Positions 1 to 61,240 of a DNA stretch of 64,000 nucleotides are shown piece by piece (the stretch's first letter is position 1; the number at the start of each line of letters is the position of its first letter). The translations under genes and the position numbers were made by a program. The notes under the pieces were generated by a model, which was not told the DNA's origin, made no database searches, and was given only the letters and a program-made list of their open reading frames with translations. Where the stretch lies: assembly GCF_003841405.1 (NCBI RefSeq), contig NZ_PXYA01000003.1:496001-560000 (forward strand). Direction: 5' to 3'. This DNA is from Tetragenococcus halophilus subsp. halophilus DSM 20339. GTDB lineage: Bacteria > Bacillota > Bacilli > Lactobacillales > Enterococcaceae.

Positions 1-2229
1 AGTTTCTGGTTCTATGCAAGCCATCGTTTCAAAATTGCAAAAGGCAGTCACATAACGCTAGCAGTTTGCTATGCGCTAATGTCTTTTGTTACTGCACAAT
101 CTGAGCTTATTATGTGGTTAGACGCCTATATATACCTACCTTTAATTATTTGGGGAATTGATCGACTCATTCAAAAACATAAACCAAAACTCTTATTTAT
201 TAGCTATTTTATGCTATTTTTCACTAGTTTTTACTTAGGGTTTATGATTGGCGTTTTTTCTTTCCTTTACTTTTTAGTTCAGTTATTTAAAAATTGGAAA
301 GACAATAAAAAAAGTATTTTACCTTACTTTACCACCTCACTATTAGCAGGCGGCGCGTCAATGATCATCATCTTACCGGCGCTATTAGATTTACGTGCCA
401 ATGGAGAAGAATTAACACAAATCACTGACCTTAAAACAGAGGCAACGAGTGCTTTCGACTTTTTTATCAAAAATATGATCGGAGTCTATGATACCACTAA
501 ATATGGCGCCATTCCCTTTATTTATATCGGTCTACTACCTCTTGCTTTTTTTATTTTTTATTTTGTCATTAAGGAAATTCCTTGGAAAGAAAAAATTCTT
601 TACGGACTATTGGTTGCATTACTAATAGGAAGCTTTTATTTTGTTCCTTTAAATTTATTCTGGCACGGGATGCATGCACCAAATATGTTTTTGTTCCGTT
701 ATGCTTTTTTATTATCCTTTACGGTAATCATGTTAGCTGGATTTGCTTGGGAAAAATTAAACGAAACAAATGAGCGAAGGTTATTTTACTCTTTTATCTT
801 TTTAGCTATCGCCTTTGTCTTTACTTATCTTTTAGTCTGCAAAACACGAGAATATCTAGAACCTATTTCATTGATTTTAACTTTATCATTTCTAACCGTC
901 TATTGTGTGATCTTTTTTTCCTTTTATACAAAAAAATTCTCTTTTAAACAAGCTGTGCTATTTTTACTGATATTTGTAACAGCTGAAATGACGATTAATA
1001 CAAATAGCATGCTACGTGGTATCTTAGATGAGTGGAACTACGCTTCCCGGGAATTGTACACAGAACCTTATCCAGCAATCAATGAACTCGTTGAACAAAC
1101 CAAAGAAGAAAATGATAGTTTCTATCGTTTAGAAAATCTTGATCCAGTTTCTGCCAATGATAGCTTTAACTATGGTTATAGTGGAATTAGTATGTTTTCA
1201 TCTATTAGAAACCGAAACACTTCTGGTTATATGAATATGCTGGGGTTCCGCTCGAGGGGAACGAGTCTAAATATTCGCTATCCTAATAACACGCTACTGA
1301 TGGATAGCTTAATGTCAGTCAAATACAATTTAAGTAAACAACCAATTAACAAGTATGGTTTCAGACAAAAAGATACAAGCGATGACTATCAATTATATGA
1401 AAATCAAAATGCATTACCTTTAGGCTTTTTAACCGACCCTTCTATTGACCAACTGACACAGTTTGAAAATGATAATTTGGCCAACCAAACAAACTTAATG
1501 AACCAATTAGCTGATACAAAAGAAAACTTCTTCCAATTTCAGCCAATCACGGTGACTGATTTGAATAATATAAGTATTGAAAATCAAGGAGCACATACAA
1601 AATTTAGTGAACAAGAAGGAAATGTCGCTAAAGAAGTCACTTGGAAAGTCAATGTACCGGCCCACTCTCAAGCCTACTTAAGTCTATTCCCAACAAATTT
1701 TGGAGAATTAGAAAGTTCTACAGCAACAATCACAGTAAATGGGCAACAAAGAGAAAGTAAAATTGACATTAATGGACAATATTATGATTTAGGTTTTTAC
1801 GACCAAGCACAAACCGTCGAATTTACAGCAAGTTTTTATGGTACCGAAGATATTTCTTTCCAAAACCCACAGGTCGTTACCTTAGATACTGATGCTTTTC
1901 AAAAAAGCGTAGGTAAAATTCAAAATAATAGCGTTGAAATGCAAACAGGAAAACGTAGTGCTCAAGCTAAAGTTGACACAAATACAGCACAAAAATTAAT
2001 TACCACTATTCCTTATGATGGCGGTTGGCAAGCAAAAATCGATGGAGAAAAAGTCCCTATTGATTCCTTCCAAGACGCTTTTGTCAGTCTACAAGTCCCA
2101 GAAGGAAAACATACTATAGAGTTTACTTACTGGCCACAAGGATTTCTTTTAGGCCTAGGATTGTTGATCAGCTGTACACTTTTATTTGTTGTCTTTGATT
2201 GGTATTACGAAAGAAGATATGCAAAATAA
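1..2229 (+). CDS. YfhO-family membrane protein, 5' end cut by window
   Basis: The frame is open from base 1, so the start lies outside the window; 742 codons are visible. About the first 330 residues are a run of hydrophobic membrane segments. A long extracytoplasmic C-terminal domain follows, and one more membrane helix sits near the end (GLGLLISCTLLFVVF). This layout matches the YfhO family of large polytopic proteins, which in Gram-positives act in glycosylation of lipoteichoic acid or other cell-envelope polymers. The substrate cannot be read from sequence. A strong terminator follows 12 bases after the stop, so this is the last gene of its unit. Confidence 0.8.
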   Translation, partial: SFWFYASHRFKIAKGSHITLAVCYALMSFVTAQSELIMWLDAYIYLPLIIWGIDRLIQKHKPKLLFISYFMLFFTSFYLGFMIGVFSFLYFLVQLFKNWKDNKKSILPYFTTSLLAGGASMIIILPALLDLRANGEELTQITDLKTEATSAFDFFIKNMIGVYDTTKYGAIPFIYIGLLPLAFFIFYFVIKEIPWKEKILYGLLVALLIGSFYFVPLNLFWHGMHAPNMFLFRYAFLLSFTVIMLAGFAWEKLNETNERRLFYSFIFLAIAFVFTYLLVCKTREYLEPISLILTLSFLTVYCVIFFSFYTKKFSFKQAVLFLLIFVTAEMTINTNSMLRGILDEWNYASRELYTEPYPAINELVEQTKEENDSFYRLENLDPVSANDSFNYGYSGISMFSSIRNRNTSGYMNMLGFRSRGTSLNIRYPNNTLLMDSLMSVKYNLSKQPINKYGFRQKDTSDDYQLYENQNALPLGFLTDPSIDQLTQFENDNLANQTNLMNQLADTKENFFQFQPITVTDLNNISIENQGAHTKFSEQEGNVAKEVTWKVNVPAHSQAYLSLFPTNFGELESSTATITVNGQQRESKIDINGQYYDLGFYDQAQTVEFTASFYGTEDISFQNPQVVTLDTDAFQKSVGKIQNNSVEMQTGKRSAQAKVDTNTAQKLITTIPYDGGWQAKIDGEKVPIDSFQDAFVSLQVPEGKHTIEFTYWPQGFLLGLGLLISCTLLFVVFDWYYERRYAK

Positions 2230-2240
2230 TTTTGTTAATT

Positions 2241-2287
2241 AAGATAGTTTTATGTCATTAAACATTACATAAAACTATCTTTTTTTA
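2241..2287 (+). terminator. Rho-independent terminator of the YfhO gene
   Basis: A perfect 15-bp stem (AAGATAGTTTTATGT at 2241-2255 with its complement at 2267-2281) is followed by a run of six T. It separates the YfhO gene from glnA. Confidence 0.92.
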
Positions 2288-2324
2288 ATTTTTTTATTGA
2301 AATTTTATTATTTCTGGAGATTCG

Positions 2325-2341
2325 TGTTATATTTCCTTACA
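2325..2341. promoter_or_regulatory. GlnR/TnrA box upstream of glnA
   Basis: TGTTATATTTCCTTACA fits the GlnR/TnrA consensus TGTNA-N7-TNACA at every fixed position. It ends 8 bases before the -35 element of the glnA promoter, a usual place for nitrogen control of glnA in Bacilli. No glnR gene lies next to glnA here, so the regulator must be encoded elsewhere. Confidence 0.8.
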
Positions 2342-2349
2342 TATTTTCA

Positions 2350-2378
2350 TTGACAAATAAAAATAAAATTGCTATATT
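2350..2378 (+). promoter_or_regulatory. glnA promoter
   Basis: TTGACA (2350-2355), a 17-base spacer and TATATT (2373-2378) make a near-consensus sigma-A promoter. Transcription should start near 2385. Confidence 0.85.
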
Positions 2379-2383
2379 ACTTC

Positions 2384-2418
2384 TATCAATTATAAAAAAT
2401 ATTTTTTTATAATTGATA
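2384..2418. repeat. 35-bp palindrome at the 5' end of the glnA transcript
   Basis: TATCAATTATAAAAA (2384-2398) is repeated exactly in inverse orientation at 2404-2418. It begins at the predicted transcription start, so it is either a 5'-end mRNA hairpin or a second operator. It does not match the GlnR consensus. Confidence 0.75.
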
Positions 2419-2440
2419 ACTTTAAAAAGGGTGGGATCAC

Positions 2441-3778
2441 ATGGAAAAATCAGAAATAAGTGCAGATGATATAAAAAGGATAGTCAAGGAAGAAAATGTC
2501 CGTTTTTTACGTTTAATGTTTACTGATGTTTCTGGGATTATCAAAAACGTAGAAGTGCCTATCAGTCAATTAGATAAAGTACTAGATAATAAATTAATGT
2601 TTGATGGCTCTTCTATCGAAGGATTTGTGCTTATCGAAGAAAGCGATATGTATCTTTATCCGGATTTATCAACTTGGATGATTTTTCCTTGGGAAAATGA
2701 GTATGGAAAAGTAGCACGTTTAATCTGTGATATTTATAATCCTGATGGAACTCCTTTTGCTGGAGATCCAAGAGGAAATCTTAAAGCTTCATTGGCAGAG
2801 ATGAAAAAGTTAGGTTTTACTTCCTTTAATTTAGGACCAGAGCCAGAATTTTTCTTATTTAAATTAGATAGTAATGAAAATATCACTATGGATTTAAATG
2901 ACACAGGTGGATACTTTGACTTATCCCCAACAGACTTAGGAGAAAATTGTCGTCGAGATATTGTATTAGAATTAGAAAAATTAAATTTTGAAGTTGAAGC
3001 TTCCCACCATGAAGTGGCTTTCGGGCAACATGAAATTGATTTTAAATATGCTGATGCTGTTGAAGCATGCGATAATATTCAAACTTTTAAACTTGTCGTT
3101 AAAACGATCGCGCGAAAACATGGACTACACGCCAGCTTTATGCCTAAGCCTTTATTTGGCATTAATGGTTCAGGGATGCATTGTAATATGTCATTATTTA
3201 AAGACGGTAAAAATGCCTTTTATGATGAAAAGGGCGAGTTACAATTAAGTCGTAACGCCTACCATTTTCTAGCTGGGCTACTAAAACATGCACGATCATT
3301 TACGGCGATCTGCAATCCTACTGTGAATTCCTACAAACGACTTATTCCGGGTTATGAAGCTCCTGTGTACATCGCTTGGTCTGGGAGAAATCGATCCCCT
3401 TTAATCCGTGTACCAGAATCAAAAGGAGCTTCTACACGCTTAGAGCTACGTTCGGTCGATCCTTCAGCTAACCCTTATCTAGCTTTATCTTTACTTTTAC
3501 AAGCCGGGTTAGATGGTATAAAAAACCAACTAATGCCACCTACACCTATCGATCGCAACATTTATCACATGGAAGAAAAAGAGCGCGTAGAAAGCGGCAT
3601 TTATGCTTTACCTTCAACACTAAATGATGCGTTAACGGCTTTATCTGAAGATGAACTACTTAAAAATACACTTGGCAAACATATCTATAATAATTTTGTA
3701 GAAGCTAAAAAGAGTGAATGGACAACTTTTTTGTCCTCTGTTTCCGAATGGGAAAAAGAACAATACTTAACACTATAG
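2441..3778 (+). CDS. glnA: Glutamine synthetase, type I-alpha
   Basis: Makes glutamine from glutamate, ammonia and ATP; cytosolic dodecamer. The 445 residues match the usual Bacillota GSI-alpha length. Signatures present include the beta-grasp N-domain, [18 protein letters not shown] and the Glu-flap segment [17 protein letters not shown]. Two normally conserved sites differ: SSIEGFV is followed by Leu64 where the Bacillus subtilis enzyme has Arg62, and [13 protein letters not shown] has Phe where Pro is usual. Arg62 is the residue linked to glutamine feedback inhibition in B. subtilis, so feedback control may be altered (inference). Start chosen for the AAGGGTGG ribosome site. Monocistronic, with a GlnR box upstream and a terminator downstream. 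Confidence 0.95.
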
Positions 3779-3796
3779 TAAACTAAACAAAGTAAC

Positions 3797-3841
3797 AAAA
3801 ATAAGAGATGTACTATCGCTAAATAGTACATCTCTTATTTT
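3797..3841. terminator. Bidirectional terminator between glnA and truA
   Basis: AAAATAAGAGATGTACTA (3797-3814) pairs perfectly with 3824-3841. The stem is flanked by A and T runs, so it can stop both the plus-strand glnA and the minus-strand truA transcripts. Confidence 0.9.
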
Positions 3842-3875
3842 CATAGACTATTAAATAAAATCTTTACTAACCTTC

Positions 3876-4619
3876 TTATTCGTACTTAACCTCTTTTAAA
3901 TATAAGCCTTCCGGATGAGCCGTAGGACCAGCTAAACTACGATCACATGCAGCAATAATTTGCGGTATTGCGTCTTCAGAAATACGTCCATTGCCAATTT
4001 TTAACAACGTCCCTACCATAATTCGAACCATATTATATAAAAAACCATCTCCACGAAAAGTAAATAACAGTTCATCACCGGTGTCATTAACTTCCATCTT
4101 CGCCTCATAGATAGTGCGTTTTTTATTGTTTACTTCACTTTTTATGGAACAAAAAGAAGTAAAATCATGAGAACCTAAAAAATCAGGAAGAGCTCTTCTT
4201 ATTCGTCCCAAGTCTAATTCATAACGATAATAACTACTATAAAACCGACGAAAAGGGCTACGAGCTTTCCCAATATCTACCCGAAATTCATAAGTCTTTT
4301 CTTTAGCTAGATAACGAGAATGAAAACTATCTTCTACAAGCTCTATCTGTTTTACCGCAATATCTGCAGATGTCTGTGTGTCTAAAGCAAAACGTAATTT
4401 TTCTAATGGACGTTTGACTGGCCAAGCAAAATCAATAACCTGTCCTAAAGCATGTACACCAGCATCTGTACGTCCAGATCCATTGATTTTAATTTTTTGA
4501 TTTGCGATTTTAGATAATGTTTTTTCTAATTCGTCTTGAACCGTACGTCCGTTGATTTGACTTTGAAAACCGCTAAAATTTGTACCATCATAGGCAATAA
4601 TTGCTTTGTAACGAACCAT
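3876..4619 (-). CDS. truA: tRNA pseudouridine(38-40) synthase
   Basis: Isomerises uridines 38-40 of the tRNA anticodon stem. The 247-residue protein has the TruA layout with the catalytic aspartate in GSGRTDAGVHALGQ. An ATG 15 bases upstream lies inside the AAGGAGG ribosome site; that site serves the ATG at 4619, which gives MVRYKAIIAYDG. It follows ecfT, as in many Bacilli, but two hairpins separate the genes. The rplM-rpsI pair that often follows truA is not here. Confidence 0.95.
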   Translation of the reverse strand: MVRYKAIIAYDGTNFSGFQSQINGRTVQDELEKTLSKIANQKIKINGSGRTDAGVHALGQVIDFAWPVKRPLEKLRFALDTQTSADIAVKQIELVEDSFHSRYLAKEKTYEFRVDIGKARSPFRRFYSSYYRYELDLGRIRRALPDFLGSHDFTSFCSIKSEVNNKKRTIYEAKMEVNDTGDELLFTFRGDGFLYNMVRIMVGTLLKIGNGRISEDAIPQIIAACDRSLAGPTAHPEGLYLKEVKYE

Positions 4620-4636
4620 TTTTTCCTCCTTCATAA

Positions 4637-4683
4637 AAAAAGAGACAATAAAAGAATCAATTAACTTTTGTTGTCTCTTTTTC
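4637..4683 (-). terminator. Terminator-like hairpin in the truA leader
   Basis: On the minus strand AAAAAGAGACAACAAAAG pairs with a following arm ending in seven T, about 18 bp with one mismatch. It lies only 18 bases before the truA start, so it may end the ecf transcript or act as an attenuator for truA. Confidence 0.7.
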
Positions 4684-4688
4684 TTAAA

Positions 4689-4723
4689 TTAAGCACGTAA
4701 CTTTAGCAAACTTATGTGCTTAA
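4689..4723 (-). repeat. Second hairpin between ecfT and truA
   Basis: TTAAGCACGTAA (4689-4700) and TTATGTGCTTAA (4712-4723) form a 12-bp stem with one mismatch, placed directly before the terminator-like hairpin of the truA leader. Confidence 0.6.
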
Positions 4724-4762
4724 CCACACTAGTTTAACTTTCTTATGAGGCTATTTCCTTTT

Positions 4763-5560
4763 TTAAGCTCTTAAATAAATTAAAGCGGCCGTTAAAAAAG
4801 CGTAAACACAAACAGAAATGGTATCTTTCTTATGCCAGTGCAATATACGATATTTTGTCCGTCCCTCTCCTCCTTGATAACCACGAGCTTCCATCGCTGT
4901 TGCTAAATCATCCGCACGATTAAAACTAGACACAAATAAGGGAATGAGCAGCGGAATGACAGCTTTCATTTTTTGGATCAAATTTCCTTCACTGAAATCA
5001 ACACCTCGAGCACGCTGTGCGTTCATAATCTTTTCAGTCTCATCCATTAGCGTTGGTACAAAACGTAAAGCAATAGACAGCATCAAAGAAATTTCATGAA
5101 CTGGAAAATGGATTGCATTTAAAGGACGTAAAATGAATTCAATCGCATCTGAAAGTTCCAATGGGGGAGTTGTTAATGTTAGTAGAGTAGACATGAATAT
5201 AATTAACACAAACCGGCAAAAGATAAAAATACCATTTTGAACCCCAAAGGCTGTAATTTGAAAAACGCCCCACTGCCAGTACACTTGTCCACCAGAGGTA
5301 AATAAAACTTGCAAAGCAACAGTAAATAATATCAACCACAATAATGGCCTGACGCCACGTAGAAAAAAACCAAAGTCAACTTTTGATAAATAGATACAAA
5401 AAAGTGTAAACAAACCTAAAAGTAAATAACTTTGCCAATTATTGGCGAAAAAAATGACTCCTATGAAATAAAAACTGGTCAACAATTTTGCCCGAGGATC
5501 TAAACGATGGATCAGTGAATTTCCTGGGATATATCTACCTAAAATCAGCTTATTCATCAT
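4763..5560 (-). CDS. ecfT: ECF transporter transmembrane subunit EcfT
   Basis: Membrane scaffold that couples the two ATPases to interchangeable vitamin-binding S components. 265 residues with several hydrophobic segments. The coupling helix motif appears as AQRARGVDF and a second Ala-Arg-Gly motif as [12 protein letters not shown]; these contact EcfA1 and EcfA2. The start overlaps the end of ecfA2 by 11 bp, which suggests translational coupling. The pyridoxine-type S component near 22 kb would be one client. Confidence 0.95.
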
Positions 5561-6416
5561 TTGCTTGTCCTCCTCTTGCCACTAGTTCATCTGCCAACTC
5601 GCTCGCCGTAAGAGGCAATTTTTCAAAAACCATTCCGGCATTTTCCAAGCGTTTAGCAAATGCAGCCGCAGTAGGAACGCTCAATTGTTTATTTTGCAAC
5701 CACTCTACATTTTGAAAGACTTTTTCTGGTGTTCCATCTTTTACAAGCTGTCCTTTTTCTAAGACATAAACATAATCAGCATAATCAGCAACATCATCCA
5801 TCGAATGTGTAACTAGCACAATAGTCATATGACGAGCCTTATGTAAATGCTCGAATATCGCCATCATTTCTCGACGTCCCTGCGGGTCAAGTCCTGCCGT
5901 GGGTTCATCCAGTACTAAAACTTCTGGTTCCATGGCTAATACACCAGCAATGGCCACTCTACGCATTTGTCCACCTGATAAATCAAACGGAGAACGATCA
6001 AGATAACTTTCATCTAGTCCTACTAATGCTAAATATTCTTTTGCTAATTTTAATGCCTCTTCTTCTGACACACCAAAATTTTTCGGCCCAAAAGCAATAT
6101 CCTTTCCCACCGTTTCTTCAAACAACTGCGATTCAGGAAATTGAAAGACAATCCCCACTTTTTTTCGAATAGGCTTTAAATTTTTATTATTTGTTTCTGG
6201 CGTGATCGTTCGCTCGCCAATCTTTACATTACCTGAAGTCGGCTTCAATAAGGCGTTTAAATGCTGTAAAATAGTTGACTTCCCACTACCTGTATGACCC
6301 ACCAGAGCATTATAAGTTCCTTCTTTAATCGTCATATTGATATCATATAAGACACGCTGTTCAAAAGGTGAGCCCGGTTGAAAAGTAAAATTTACTTGTT
6401 CAAAAACGATGTCCAT
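5550..6416 (-). CDS. ecfA2: ECF transporter ATPase EcfA2
   Basis: Second energising ATPase of the shared ECF module. 288 residues with Walker [10 protein letters not shown], a Q-loop at VFQFPE, signature LSGGQMRR, Walker [14 protein letters not shown] and the switch histidine in VTHSMDD. It overlaps ecfA1 by 25 bp and ecfT by 11 bp, so all three genes are one translationally coupled unit. Confidence 0.95.
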
Positions 6417-59070: not shown

Positions 59071-59370
59071 TTTTCTATTTACAAGTCCTTTCCCTTTTAT
59101 AATTTTAATAAAAATGGCTTCTAAGAATTATTTTTATTTTCTGAATTTTCACTAACTAAATTAATTCAAAACAATAATACTAACTTATCACATGAAAGAA
59201 TAGAGGCAAAGTCATTATCTTTTAAATAACGAGAAAAAGTATATTTTTAAAATACAAAAACAGGAAAGAACTAATTGCTATATTTAAAAATAAGTTCTAA
59301 ATAAAGCTTAAAAGAAAATAATTTCTTCCTGTTGAACTTGTAAAAAAACAAAAGATTTTTATATAATCGA
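59071..59370. other. Intergenic region, 3' exon side of the group II intron
   Basis: AT-rich. A long imperfect inverted repeat (AACAGGAAAGAA near 59260 with TTTCTTCCTGTT near 59325) is the only structure noticed; TTAGAA with 17 bases and TATAAA (minus strand, near 59125-59100) may be the promoter of the beta-lactamase-like gene. Confidence 0.4.
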
Positions 59371-61240
59371 GTAGGAGACTAACCATTAATTGATTAGTCG
59401 ACCTCTCACACCACCGTACGTACGGTTCCGTATACGGCGGTTCAATAATTTAAGCTTTTATTTCTCAAGGATTTCAATGAAATCCTTGAGTTTCCATTGT
59501 TTGAACTTTTCTTTGCTGAAGATTCTATTTAGAAGTTTTGATTTTGAAATTCGCCAATACTGTTTCCGGCTATTCGCATACGTCATGGCCTCTTTATGAG
59601 AGGCCCCTCTTGCCTTCAGTTGGCGGTATTTCGTATCGACTTTCTTCCATCTTTTCCAAATCAAGGCTCGCAACCTATGTCGTAAGTATTCCATCTGTTT
59701 AGCTAGGAAAGTTTTTAGTTCTCCGTCTTTATAGTATTGAATCCAACCTTGGGTGTACTGATTGATGGTTTTGATCATCTCATCTAGCGTGCCCACCCTT
59801 TTTCGGTTCGTCAATCTTTTCAGCGTTCTTTTGAACTTTTGTTTGGCCGACGCTGTGGGTCGGCTCTTTACTTTCCCTTATCTTTTCTCATACGATAGCT
59901 CAGGTATTCTAATTGATGCGCCTTAATGATTTGGCTCTTTTCTTGATTCACCGTCAATCGTAATTTCTTTTCCAGGAATTGGGTAATACTTTCTTGGACT
60001 CTCTGAGCGGCCCGCTCGCTTTGGACAAAGATAATAAAATCGTCCGCGTATCGAATAAACCGATGGTTTCTTCTTTCGAGTTCCTTGTCCAATTGGTCCA
60101 GATAAACATTGGCTAAAAGAGGAGAAAGCGGGCTCCCTTGGGAGGCTCCTTTTGAAGTTGGACGAAGAATTTCGCCCTCCATTACTCCTGCGTTTAAGAA
60201 ATTCCAAATAAGTTGGAGAGCGGCCTTTTCTTCGATGTACCATTGCATACGATGCATAAGTTTCTGATGGTTAATCGTGTCGAAATAGCTCTTTAAATCA
60301 CAGTCGACAACCACGTCATAGCCTTCTTCATAATATTGGCCTGCCTTCGCTATTGCTTGTTGACAGCTTTTTCCAGGTCTAAACCCATAGCTGTTTTCCG
60401 AAAAGGTCGGGTCGATCAAGGGCGTGATGACTTGTAAAATCATTTGTTGTACTACGCGGTCCCGTACGACGGGGATGCTCAATTTTCGTTTCTTGCCGTT
60501 TCCTTTAGGAATTTCCACACGTTTTGTTGGTTGTGGGCGATAGGTCCCTTCTCTCAGCTTTTGTACAAAGGGACGACGATACTTGTTCAAATGAGATTTG
60601 ATTTCAGATACCGTCATATCATCGATTCCCGGTGCTCCTTTGTTCTTTTTGACTTTCTCGATCGCTCGATCTATATTCATTGAGCTGACGAGTTCGTTCA
60701 TTAATGGAAAGCCACTTTGGTTCATCATCTTATTGTCGTGCTCCCTTACGCGCTCCTCATTTCTTCTTTTGCTTCCAGCTTATCCTTCCACGAGTGAGCT
60801 ACCTATCGGTCTTTACCACGGTATTGGCTGCGGTCCTGGTGAGCACGTCCACCTCCTTGTTTACTTCAAAGTTATTATTGTTCAGTCCTTCATATCCATA
60901 GGATACTACTATGACCTTGGCTGACTTCTGCCTATTCGTTGTTACTACGATTTCTATCGCTAGGCAGACCTCCTCGGGTAAGGTGTGATAACTTTCCACT
61001 CACGTCACCGCCTCATTTACTGTATGGGATTCGGGCAGTATTGGACTTTGCTTTGTTTTGCAAGCTCGTCCGTCCCAATTCAGCCTTCTTATGAGATTCC
61101 TGTTCGTCAGTGCGAGTGTTTGCCTCCAGCTTCCTTCAGATTCCACTTCGCAGTGGACACCCTTGCTTTTGGCTAACAGTTCCTACTGCCAAGCCTGTAG
61201 TGGACTTTCACCACCAAGTTATCGCCCATGCCGAGCGCAC
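59371..61240 (-). mobile_element. Group IIC intron
   Basis: On the minus strand the intron begins GTGCGCTCGGCATGG at 61240 (the GTGCG 5' signature) and ends TCTCCTAC at 59371. Before the end lies a domain V hairpin (CCGCCGTATACG, GAAC loop, CGTACGTACGGTGG; about 59438-59405) with the CGC triad expected of group IIC, then a domain VI stem with GACTAA and TTAGTC arms. It sits seven bases after a terminator stem, the typical target of group IIC introns. The ORF lies in domain IV. Confidence 0.9.
59458..60728 (-). pseudogene. ltrA: Group II intron reverse transcriptase/maturase, frameshifted
   Basis: First part (60728-59868): reverse transcriptase palm and fingers with GFRPGKSCQQAI, DCDLKSYFDTI, GASQGSPLSPLLANVYL and the catalytic RYADDFIIF. 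The frame then stops at MRKDKGK. In the next frame the text continues KVKSRPTASAKQKFKRTLKRL and on to maturase domain X (QYTQGWIQYYKDGELKTF) to 59458. A single missing base in a G run near 59880 explains the break. Without correction the protein lacks domain X. Confidence 0.88.

Follow-up and report, generated by a model that had tools for sequence, protein, structure and literature searches.

The second glutamine synthetase (GS) gene of Tetragenococcus halophilus subsp. halophilus DSM 20339, glnA2, differs by one base from the codon that four of its sister genes have at position 62, and its product carries leucine in the place of an arginine that every other GlnA in our sample retains. The explanation that we favour, and hold to be reasonably probable, is that glnA2 encodes a conserved second GS under the control of the nitrogen regulator GlnR, in which Leu62 would remove or weaken feedback inhibition by glutamine; expression, activity and binding are here all predicted from sequence. 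The gene lies in a window of 64,000 nucleotides, by which we mean the whole stretch of DNA analysed (Table 1). Positions in the protein are given in Bacillus subtilis numbering unless a codon is named, and residues 64 and 194 of GlnA2 pair with 62 and 192 of a Bacillus GlnA in the alignment.

The second glutamine synthetase

GlnA2 scored 587.9 bits against the NCBIfam profile for GlnA, TIGR00653 (cut-off 429.15), carried the Pfam domains Gln-synt_N and Gln-synt_C, and stayed under the cut-offs of the models for type III GS and gamma-glutamylputrescine synthetase. The criterion separating GSI-beta from GSI-alpha is an insert of about 25 residues, according to the available portion of PMC9249791. 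GlnA2 has no such insert, its residues 7-444 falling on 4-441 of 4lnf_A, and is of the GSI-alpha type. Catalytic Glu304 and Arg316 are kept, as they are in all 198 GlnA rows drawn from the best 80 of at least 593 named loci and from 118 family hits. An earlier note on this DNA had reported leucine at the place of Arg62 and an active-site segment unlike the HHEVAPGQHE of B. subtilis; both readings are correct, codon 64 being CTT and codon 194 TTC, the latter giving phenylalanine where B. subtilis has Pro192. The arginine by which a feedback-inhibited GS is recognised is replaced in GlnA2 by Leu64. Nor does the gene lie directly behind glnR, as in a glnRA operon; it is flanked by a gene for a large membrane protein, which we take to be YfhO-like, and by one for a pseudouridine synthase, presumably TruA-like.

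Two full-length type I GS genes are present in the assembly of this genome, which has 2.6 Mb in five contigs and a listed completeness and contamination of 100% and 1.02%. The suspicion of the same note that the gene might be a second paralogue was borne out, for a separate, glnR-linked glnA with Arg62, here called GlnA1, lies on another contig.

Table 1. Features of the glnA2 region (window positions) and the GlnA1 gene of the same genome
Feature	Position	Strand	Basis or remark
Upstream neighbour, large membrane protein, 3' part; full ORF of 862 aa starts before the window	79..2229	(+)	ORF
Tract 98-100% identical to G002, approximate boundaries	1751..4250		250-base bins
GlnR operator 1 (predicted), TGTCATTAAACATTACA	2253..2269	(+)	exact TGTNAN7TNACA
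GlnR operator 2 (predicted), TGTTATATTTCCTTACA, 8 bp upstream of -35	2325..2341	(+)	exact TGTNAN7TNACA
Promoter-like TTGACA-17-TATATT, 11/12 consensus matches, TG before second hexamer	2350..2378	(+)	promoter scan
glnA2, second type I glutamine synthetase, 445 aa	2441..3778	(+)	ORF without internal stop; TIGR00653, Pfam Gln-synt_N and Gln-synt_C
Codon 64, CTT (Leu), after SSIEGFV, at the place of B. subtilis Arg62	2630..2632	(+)	alignment
Active-site segment, counterpart of HHEVAPGQHE, Phe194 inside	3005..3034	(+)	ORF translation, alignment
Codon 194, TTC (Phe), B. subtilis 192	3020-3022	(+)	alignment
Downstream neighbour, pseudouridine synthase, conserved synteny marker	3876..4634	(-)	ORF
GlnA1, directly behind MerR-type glnR, on another contig	G000:C1:35017-36348		Arg62, HHEAAPGQHE

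A change of one base in one genome

Two sets of GlnA were compared: a named set, the best 80 of at least 593 confirmed loci and as such a sample of close relatives, and a set of 118 hits examined of 119 matches in 105 genomes of Enterococcaceae, a 54-residue contig-edge fragment in G075 being left out. The sets overlap, for over the compared core twelve named rows coincide with rows of the family set, and the two sets together, 198 rows, contain 178 distinct cores. Arg62 was found in all 80 named loci (the best 80 of at least 593) and in 117 of the 118 family hits, the sole exception being the GlnA2 described here. Its six sisters in the genus all retain the arginine, encoded by CGT in four of them (G001, G002, G004 and G007), by CGA in G003 and by CGG in G006, and the CTT of this gene is a single G-to-T difference from CGT. 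The earlier note had allowed that close relatives might share the leucine, and at species level they do not, the six sister copies carrying Arg62. By this comparison Leu62 is a recent change, unique in the sample and known from one base in one assembly.

Against glnA2 of G002 the gene of this genome shows three base differences, in codons 20, 64 and 101, all of them nonsynonymous. Polarised by the other GlnA2 copies, two of these changes fall on the side of G002 and R64L alone on the side of this genome, and three coding changes are too few to separate selection from relaxation. Because the tract around glnA2 is nearly identical to that of G002 while the flanks adjoining it (1-1750 and 4251-5750) show 83-96% identity, the region was probably exchanged recently by recombination; from about 7500 on, where conserved ribosomal genes lie, identity to G002 is once more high. 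The GlnA1 of this genome shows no difference from that of G001 and shares 94% identity with the GlnA1 of G002. The surrounding DNA, about 2.5 kb at glnRA (L003 6501-9000; L101; L213), likewise matches G001 exactly and G002 at about 93-97%. The genome looks mosaic in these alignments, with a G002-like glnA2 tract and G001-like surroundings of glnRA.

Expected effect on glutamine feedback

In feedback-inhibited GS, Glu304 bonds glutamine and the contact is stabilised by Arg62 of the D50 loop, an arginine that also touches an acidic residue of the GlnR C-tail (both from the available portion of PMC9249791). Replacement of this arginine has precedents: the R66A variant of M. mazei GlnA1 had wild-type activity, and 5 mM glutamine had ceased to inhibit it significantly (PMC11957540, in excerpt), and the GS of M. 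thermolithotrophicus, with glycine in the place of Arg62, was unaffected by 20 mM glutamine, whereas an arginine-bearing archaeal GS was inhibited by 97% under glutamine (PMC10799026, in excerpt). Since leucine has no group for the bond that Arg62 makes, and in light of the alanine and glycine precedents, loss of glutamine feedback would be the likeliest effect of Leu62. Leucine is bulkier than the residues of these published variants, and at its place in the D50 loop might disturb catalysis as well. The proposal of feedback resistance in the earlier note is, by the same precedents, plausible for this one protein; as a trait of the GlnA2 class it falls, because the other six GlnA2 keep Arg62.

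Putative control by GlnR

The GlnR operator consensus, TGTNAN7TNACA, comes from the portion of PMC9249791 that was available, and two exact boxes of this kind, the mark of the GlnR regulon, lie upstream of glnA2. The whole window holds three exact boxes where 1.69 would be expected, and 27 of 100 shuffles reached three; by count the boxes are weak evidence, and what speaks for them is their place and conservation. Within 250 bp upstream, at least one exact box occurs in all 12 second-copy loci of this type and two occur in six of them (seven within 330 bp). Of dinucleotide shuffles of each locus, 0.15-1.15% contained one box or more, and 0 of 2000 contained two. The box stands 7-8 bp ahead of TTGACA in eight of the 12; in the remaining four, the promoter-proximal box of G002 has one mismatch and those of G067, G068 and G069 overlap the predicted promoter. 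The promoter-like site ahead of glnA2 is the best of seven, a number in no excess over the 7.7 given by shuffles. The glnRA promoter of this genome also has an exact GlnR box ahead of it, arranged, by eye, like that of glnA2. Because such boxes are conserved in all 12 loci and, in eight of them, placed before the predicted promoter, glnA2 is likely a GlnR target.

Operator 1 covers the loop and the inner arm ends of an inverted repeat that is followed by a T-rich stretch behind the yfhO-like gene, and in G003 and G007 (L103; L105) the GlnR box itself, judged by eye, is the stem of an inverted repeat. The terminator scan did not list the repeat at operator 1, and its reading as a terminator is by eye only.

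Those GlnR tails of Enterococcaceae that were compared (L002 743-1123; L092-L100; L010-L013; L125-L129) end, for example, in NPFQSRGPKL or FDSQRPKL. The GS-binding tail motif XG(E/D)XSRF, which touches Arg62 in published structures of GS with GlnR, was absent from the Enterococcaceae GlnR tails examined, in a scan by a narrow motif that found 41 loci and misses many. Because the tails of the family are without this published motif, GlnR may read GS differently here, and the Bacillus model may be carried over only with change.

Origin of the second copy

GlnA was found in all 105 genomes of the family, and two full copies in 13 of them: seven of this genus, two of genus g8, three of g9, and G072. 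Within the genus, GlnA1 stands directly behind a glnR-like gene in nine of nine genomes, and the second copy is present in seven; of the two genomes without it, G008 is only 88% complete. The order yfhO-glnA2-truA is found on both sides of the gene in four genomes of the genus (this one, G002, G003 and G006) and in three of another (G067, G068 and G069). An extra ORF, which we assume to be group II intron reverse transcriptase-like, separates glnA2 from truA in G002; group II intron signatures also occur in our window, at 59366-61157 (-). A contig end limits the view to the upstream side in G001 and G007. The synteny is not universal: the second copies of G004 and G066 stand among different genes, and that of G065 shares only the truA side. 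The gene on its other side is a divergent glutamate synthase gene (L110 6654-11135), and GlnR boxes precede this second glnA of G065.

The tree, from which one of 48 rows was left out (Liquorilactobacillus, motif unmatched), resolves its deep forks poorly, 13 of its 42 internal branches being drawn as open. That the second copies share an origin is for that reason argued from synteny and operators, and from these we infer that GlnA2 is a long-standing second type I-alpha GS of this branch of Enterococcaceae. Gain from outside the family is unsupported, the syntenic locus of the second genus having both Pro192 and Arg62, and a plasmid origin was set aside, since plasmid matches to GlnA2 reached 71% at best. 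The second GlnA of G072, which groups with rows of Listeria, Bacillus and Staphylococcus, is by its place in the tree a different copy from GlnA2, and probably a foreign one.

We looked in the nine genomes of the genus for the amidotransferase class-II domain that marks glutamate synthase: eight gave no hit and G006 a single one, weak and partial, whereas the domain was detected in 12 of 14 control genomes. Because the genus shows no convincing match to this domain, a GS-GOGAT cycle is not expected there.

Phe192, an older and separate change

Residue 192 is proline in 78 of the 80 named loci (the best 80 of at least 593), the other two having glutamate in Vagococcus elongatus and valine in Floricoccus tropicus. 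Proline is also found in 112 of the 118 family hits, and the six with phenylalanine are all GlnA2 of this genus, in which only the copy of G006, among seven, keeps Pro192. These six copies form one clade with support of 100/100, and the Pro192 copy of G006 joins them at 90/80; most likely the change from proline to phenylalanine was a single event within the genus that followed the split from G006. That Phe192 and Leu62 form a single trait was ruled out, the former occurring in six GlnA2 copies and the latter in one: the two changes arose at different times and are not one trait. Feedback-resistant mutations of B. subtilis are located in the HHEVAPGQHE segment near Pro192. The valine and glutamate of the two other genera, and the glnR-like gene upstream of the Val192 copy of Floricoccus, suggest that Pro192 is not essential.

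Selection and constraint

Pairwise dN/dS was 0.046-0.066 for GlnA2 and 0.025-0.032 for GlnA1, from four pairs each; one pair per gene without synonymous change was left out, and dS exceeded 1 in the wider pairs. On these ratios GlnA2 is a kept gene under purifying selection, with somewhat weaker constraint than GlnA1. Furthermore, we took the 151 columns that are invariant in 191 other GlnA rows (the named rows being the best 80 of at least 593, and the six Phe192 copies and the partial copy of G075 being left out). The GlnA2 of this genome departs from them at five: R62L, R114A, G180N, T230S and R326K. Among the other GlnA2, G002 and G001 depart at four columns, G003 at one, G004 at two and G007 at three. 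G180N is common to all six Phe192 copies, R326K to five, and R114A and T230S to three each. The GlnA1 of this genome, G001 and G002 showed no departure, and five Pro192 second copies showed none or one, when each was left out in turn, a milder test in which relatives stay in the set. Because of the four departures besides R62L, the kinetics of GlnA2 may differ for reasons other than Leu62.

A proposed mechanism and its rivals

Under the favoured reading, GlnA2, which lies away from glnR and yet has predicted GlnR operators, one of them placed as in glnRA, would be made when nitrogen is short. One base, CGT to CTT, would have replaced the arginine that bonds Glu304 and so holds bound glutamine. 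As Glu304 and Arg316 are intact, GlnA2 probably still forms glutamine, and its own response to glutamine would be weak or none. Its control would then be mainly transcriptional, by way of GlnR, which in the Bacillus model is activated by feedback-inhibited GlnA1. The active sites of GS form between two subunits, and the D50 loop with position 62 reaches across the interface. In mixed GlnA1/GlnA2 dodecamers the Leu62 subunits might unlock GlnA1 sites, lower the inhibition of the pool and weaken the signal to GlnR, so that one base would shift the nitrogen set-point of the cell, an extension of the idea that we regard as quite improbable.

Leu62 could instead be an allele without effect or with a slight cost, in a gene that is a spare beside GlnA1, this copy starting to lose function. 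To this we give a minor but real chance. The absence of GlnA2 from two of the nine genomes of the genus (one of them the incomplete G008), a dN/dS about twice that of GlnA1, the four additional departures from invariant columns and the fact that none of the three differences from G002 is synonymous, too few as these are to decide, would all fit a decaying gene. Yet the frame is intact, the promoter-like site and both operators are present, dN/dS is far below 1, and R64L is the only one of the three differences to fall on the side of this genome. A single G-to-T difference seen in one genome only might also be an error of base calling or assembly, the true residue being Arg62, but the remainder of glnA2 is clean and in frame, and the assembly, with its five contigs and listed completeness of 100% at 1.02% contamination, makes an error improbable.

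The earlier note had further proposed that GlnA2 might build up a glutamine pool under salt stress. What favours this is an analogy only, salt and chloride inducing glnA2 of Halobacillus halophilus; in the same source, available in part, deletion of that gene left the pools of glutamine and glutamate unchanged and the purified enzyme was inactive under the conditions tested (PMC3995056). Among the open-licence papers listed for Tetragenococcus, no title or abstract opening reported a second GlnA or such a salt role. With predicted operators of a nitrogen regulator, which indicate nitrogen control, ahead of glnA2, and a negative precedent, albeit from a more distant enzyme, a salt role is unsupported and we think it very unlikely.

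If the reading of a GlnR-controlled GS with impaired feedback is true, this genome would hold a natural bacterial GSI-alpha without a glutamine brake beside a braked copy in the same cell, and the GlnA2 of its sister G002, three residues apart, would be an almost matched control. The pair would allow a test of whether feedback on the enzyme and the signal to GlnR, both tied to Arg62 in the Bacillus structures, are separable. More speculatively, a brake-free GlnA2 may matter for the glutamine and glutamate output of fermentation strains.

Comparison with known systems

Like GlnA2 of H. halophilus, the GlnA2 of this genome is a solitary second GS beside a glnR-linked GlnA1. The two differ in that the Halobacillus enzyme is salt-induced, had no activity found and is 52% identical to B. 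subtilis GS (PMC3995056, in excerpt), whereas GlnA2 is about 70% identical to the Bacillus GlnA loci among the best 80 of at least 593. With GlnA1 of its own genome, to which it is 74% identical, GlnA2 shares its type I class and an exact GlnR box upstream, but GlnA1 has Arg62, Pro192 and, left out in turn, no departure from invariant columns. The structure 4LNF and related PDB entries are of B. subtilis GS (organism as given in the available text of PMC10799026 and PMC11957540). GlnA2 resembles that GSI-alpha enzyme in aligning with it over residues 7-444 (4-441 of 4lnf_A) and in sharing Glu304 and Arg316; it differs in having leucine for Arg62, phenylalanine for Pro192 and asparagine for Gly180, and in lying outside a glnRA operon. 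The GS of Methanothermococcus thermolithotrophicus is, like GlnA2, a natural type I-alpha enzyme without an equivalent of Arg62, Gly67 standing in its place; unlike GlnA2 it is archaeal, responds to 2-oxoglutarate and has been measured as uninhibited by glutamine (PMC10799026, in excerpt).
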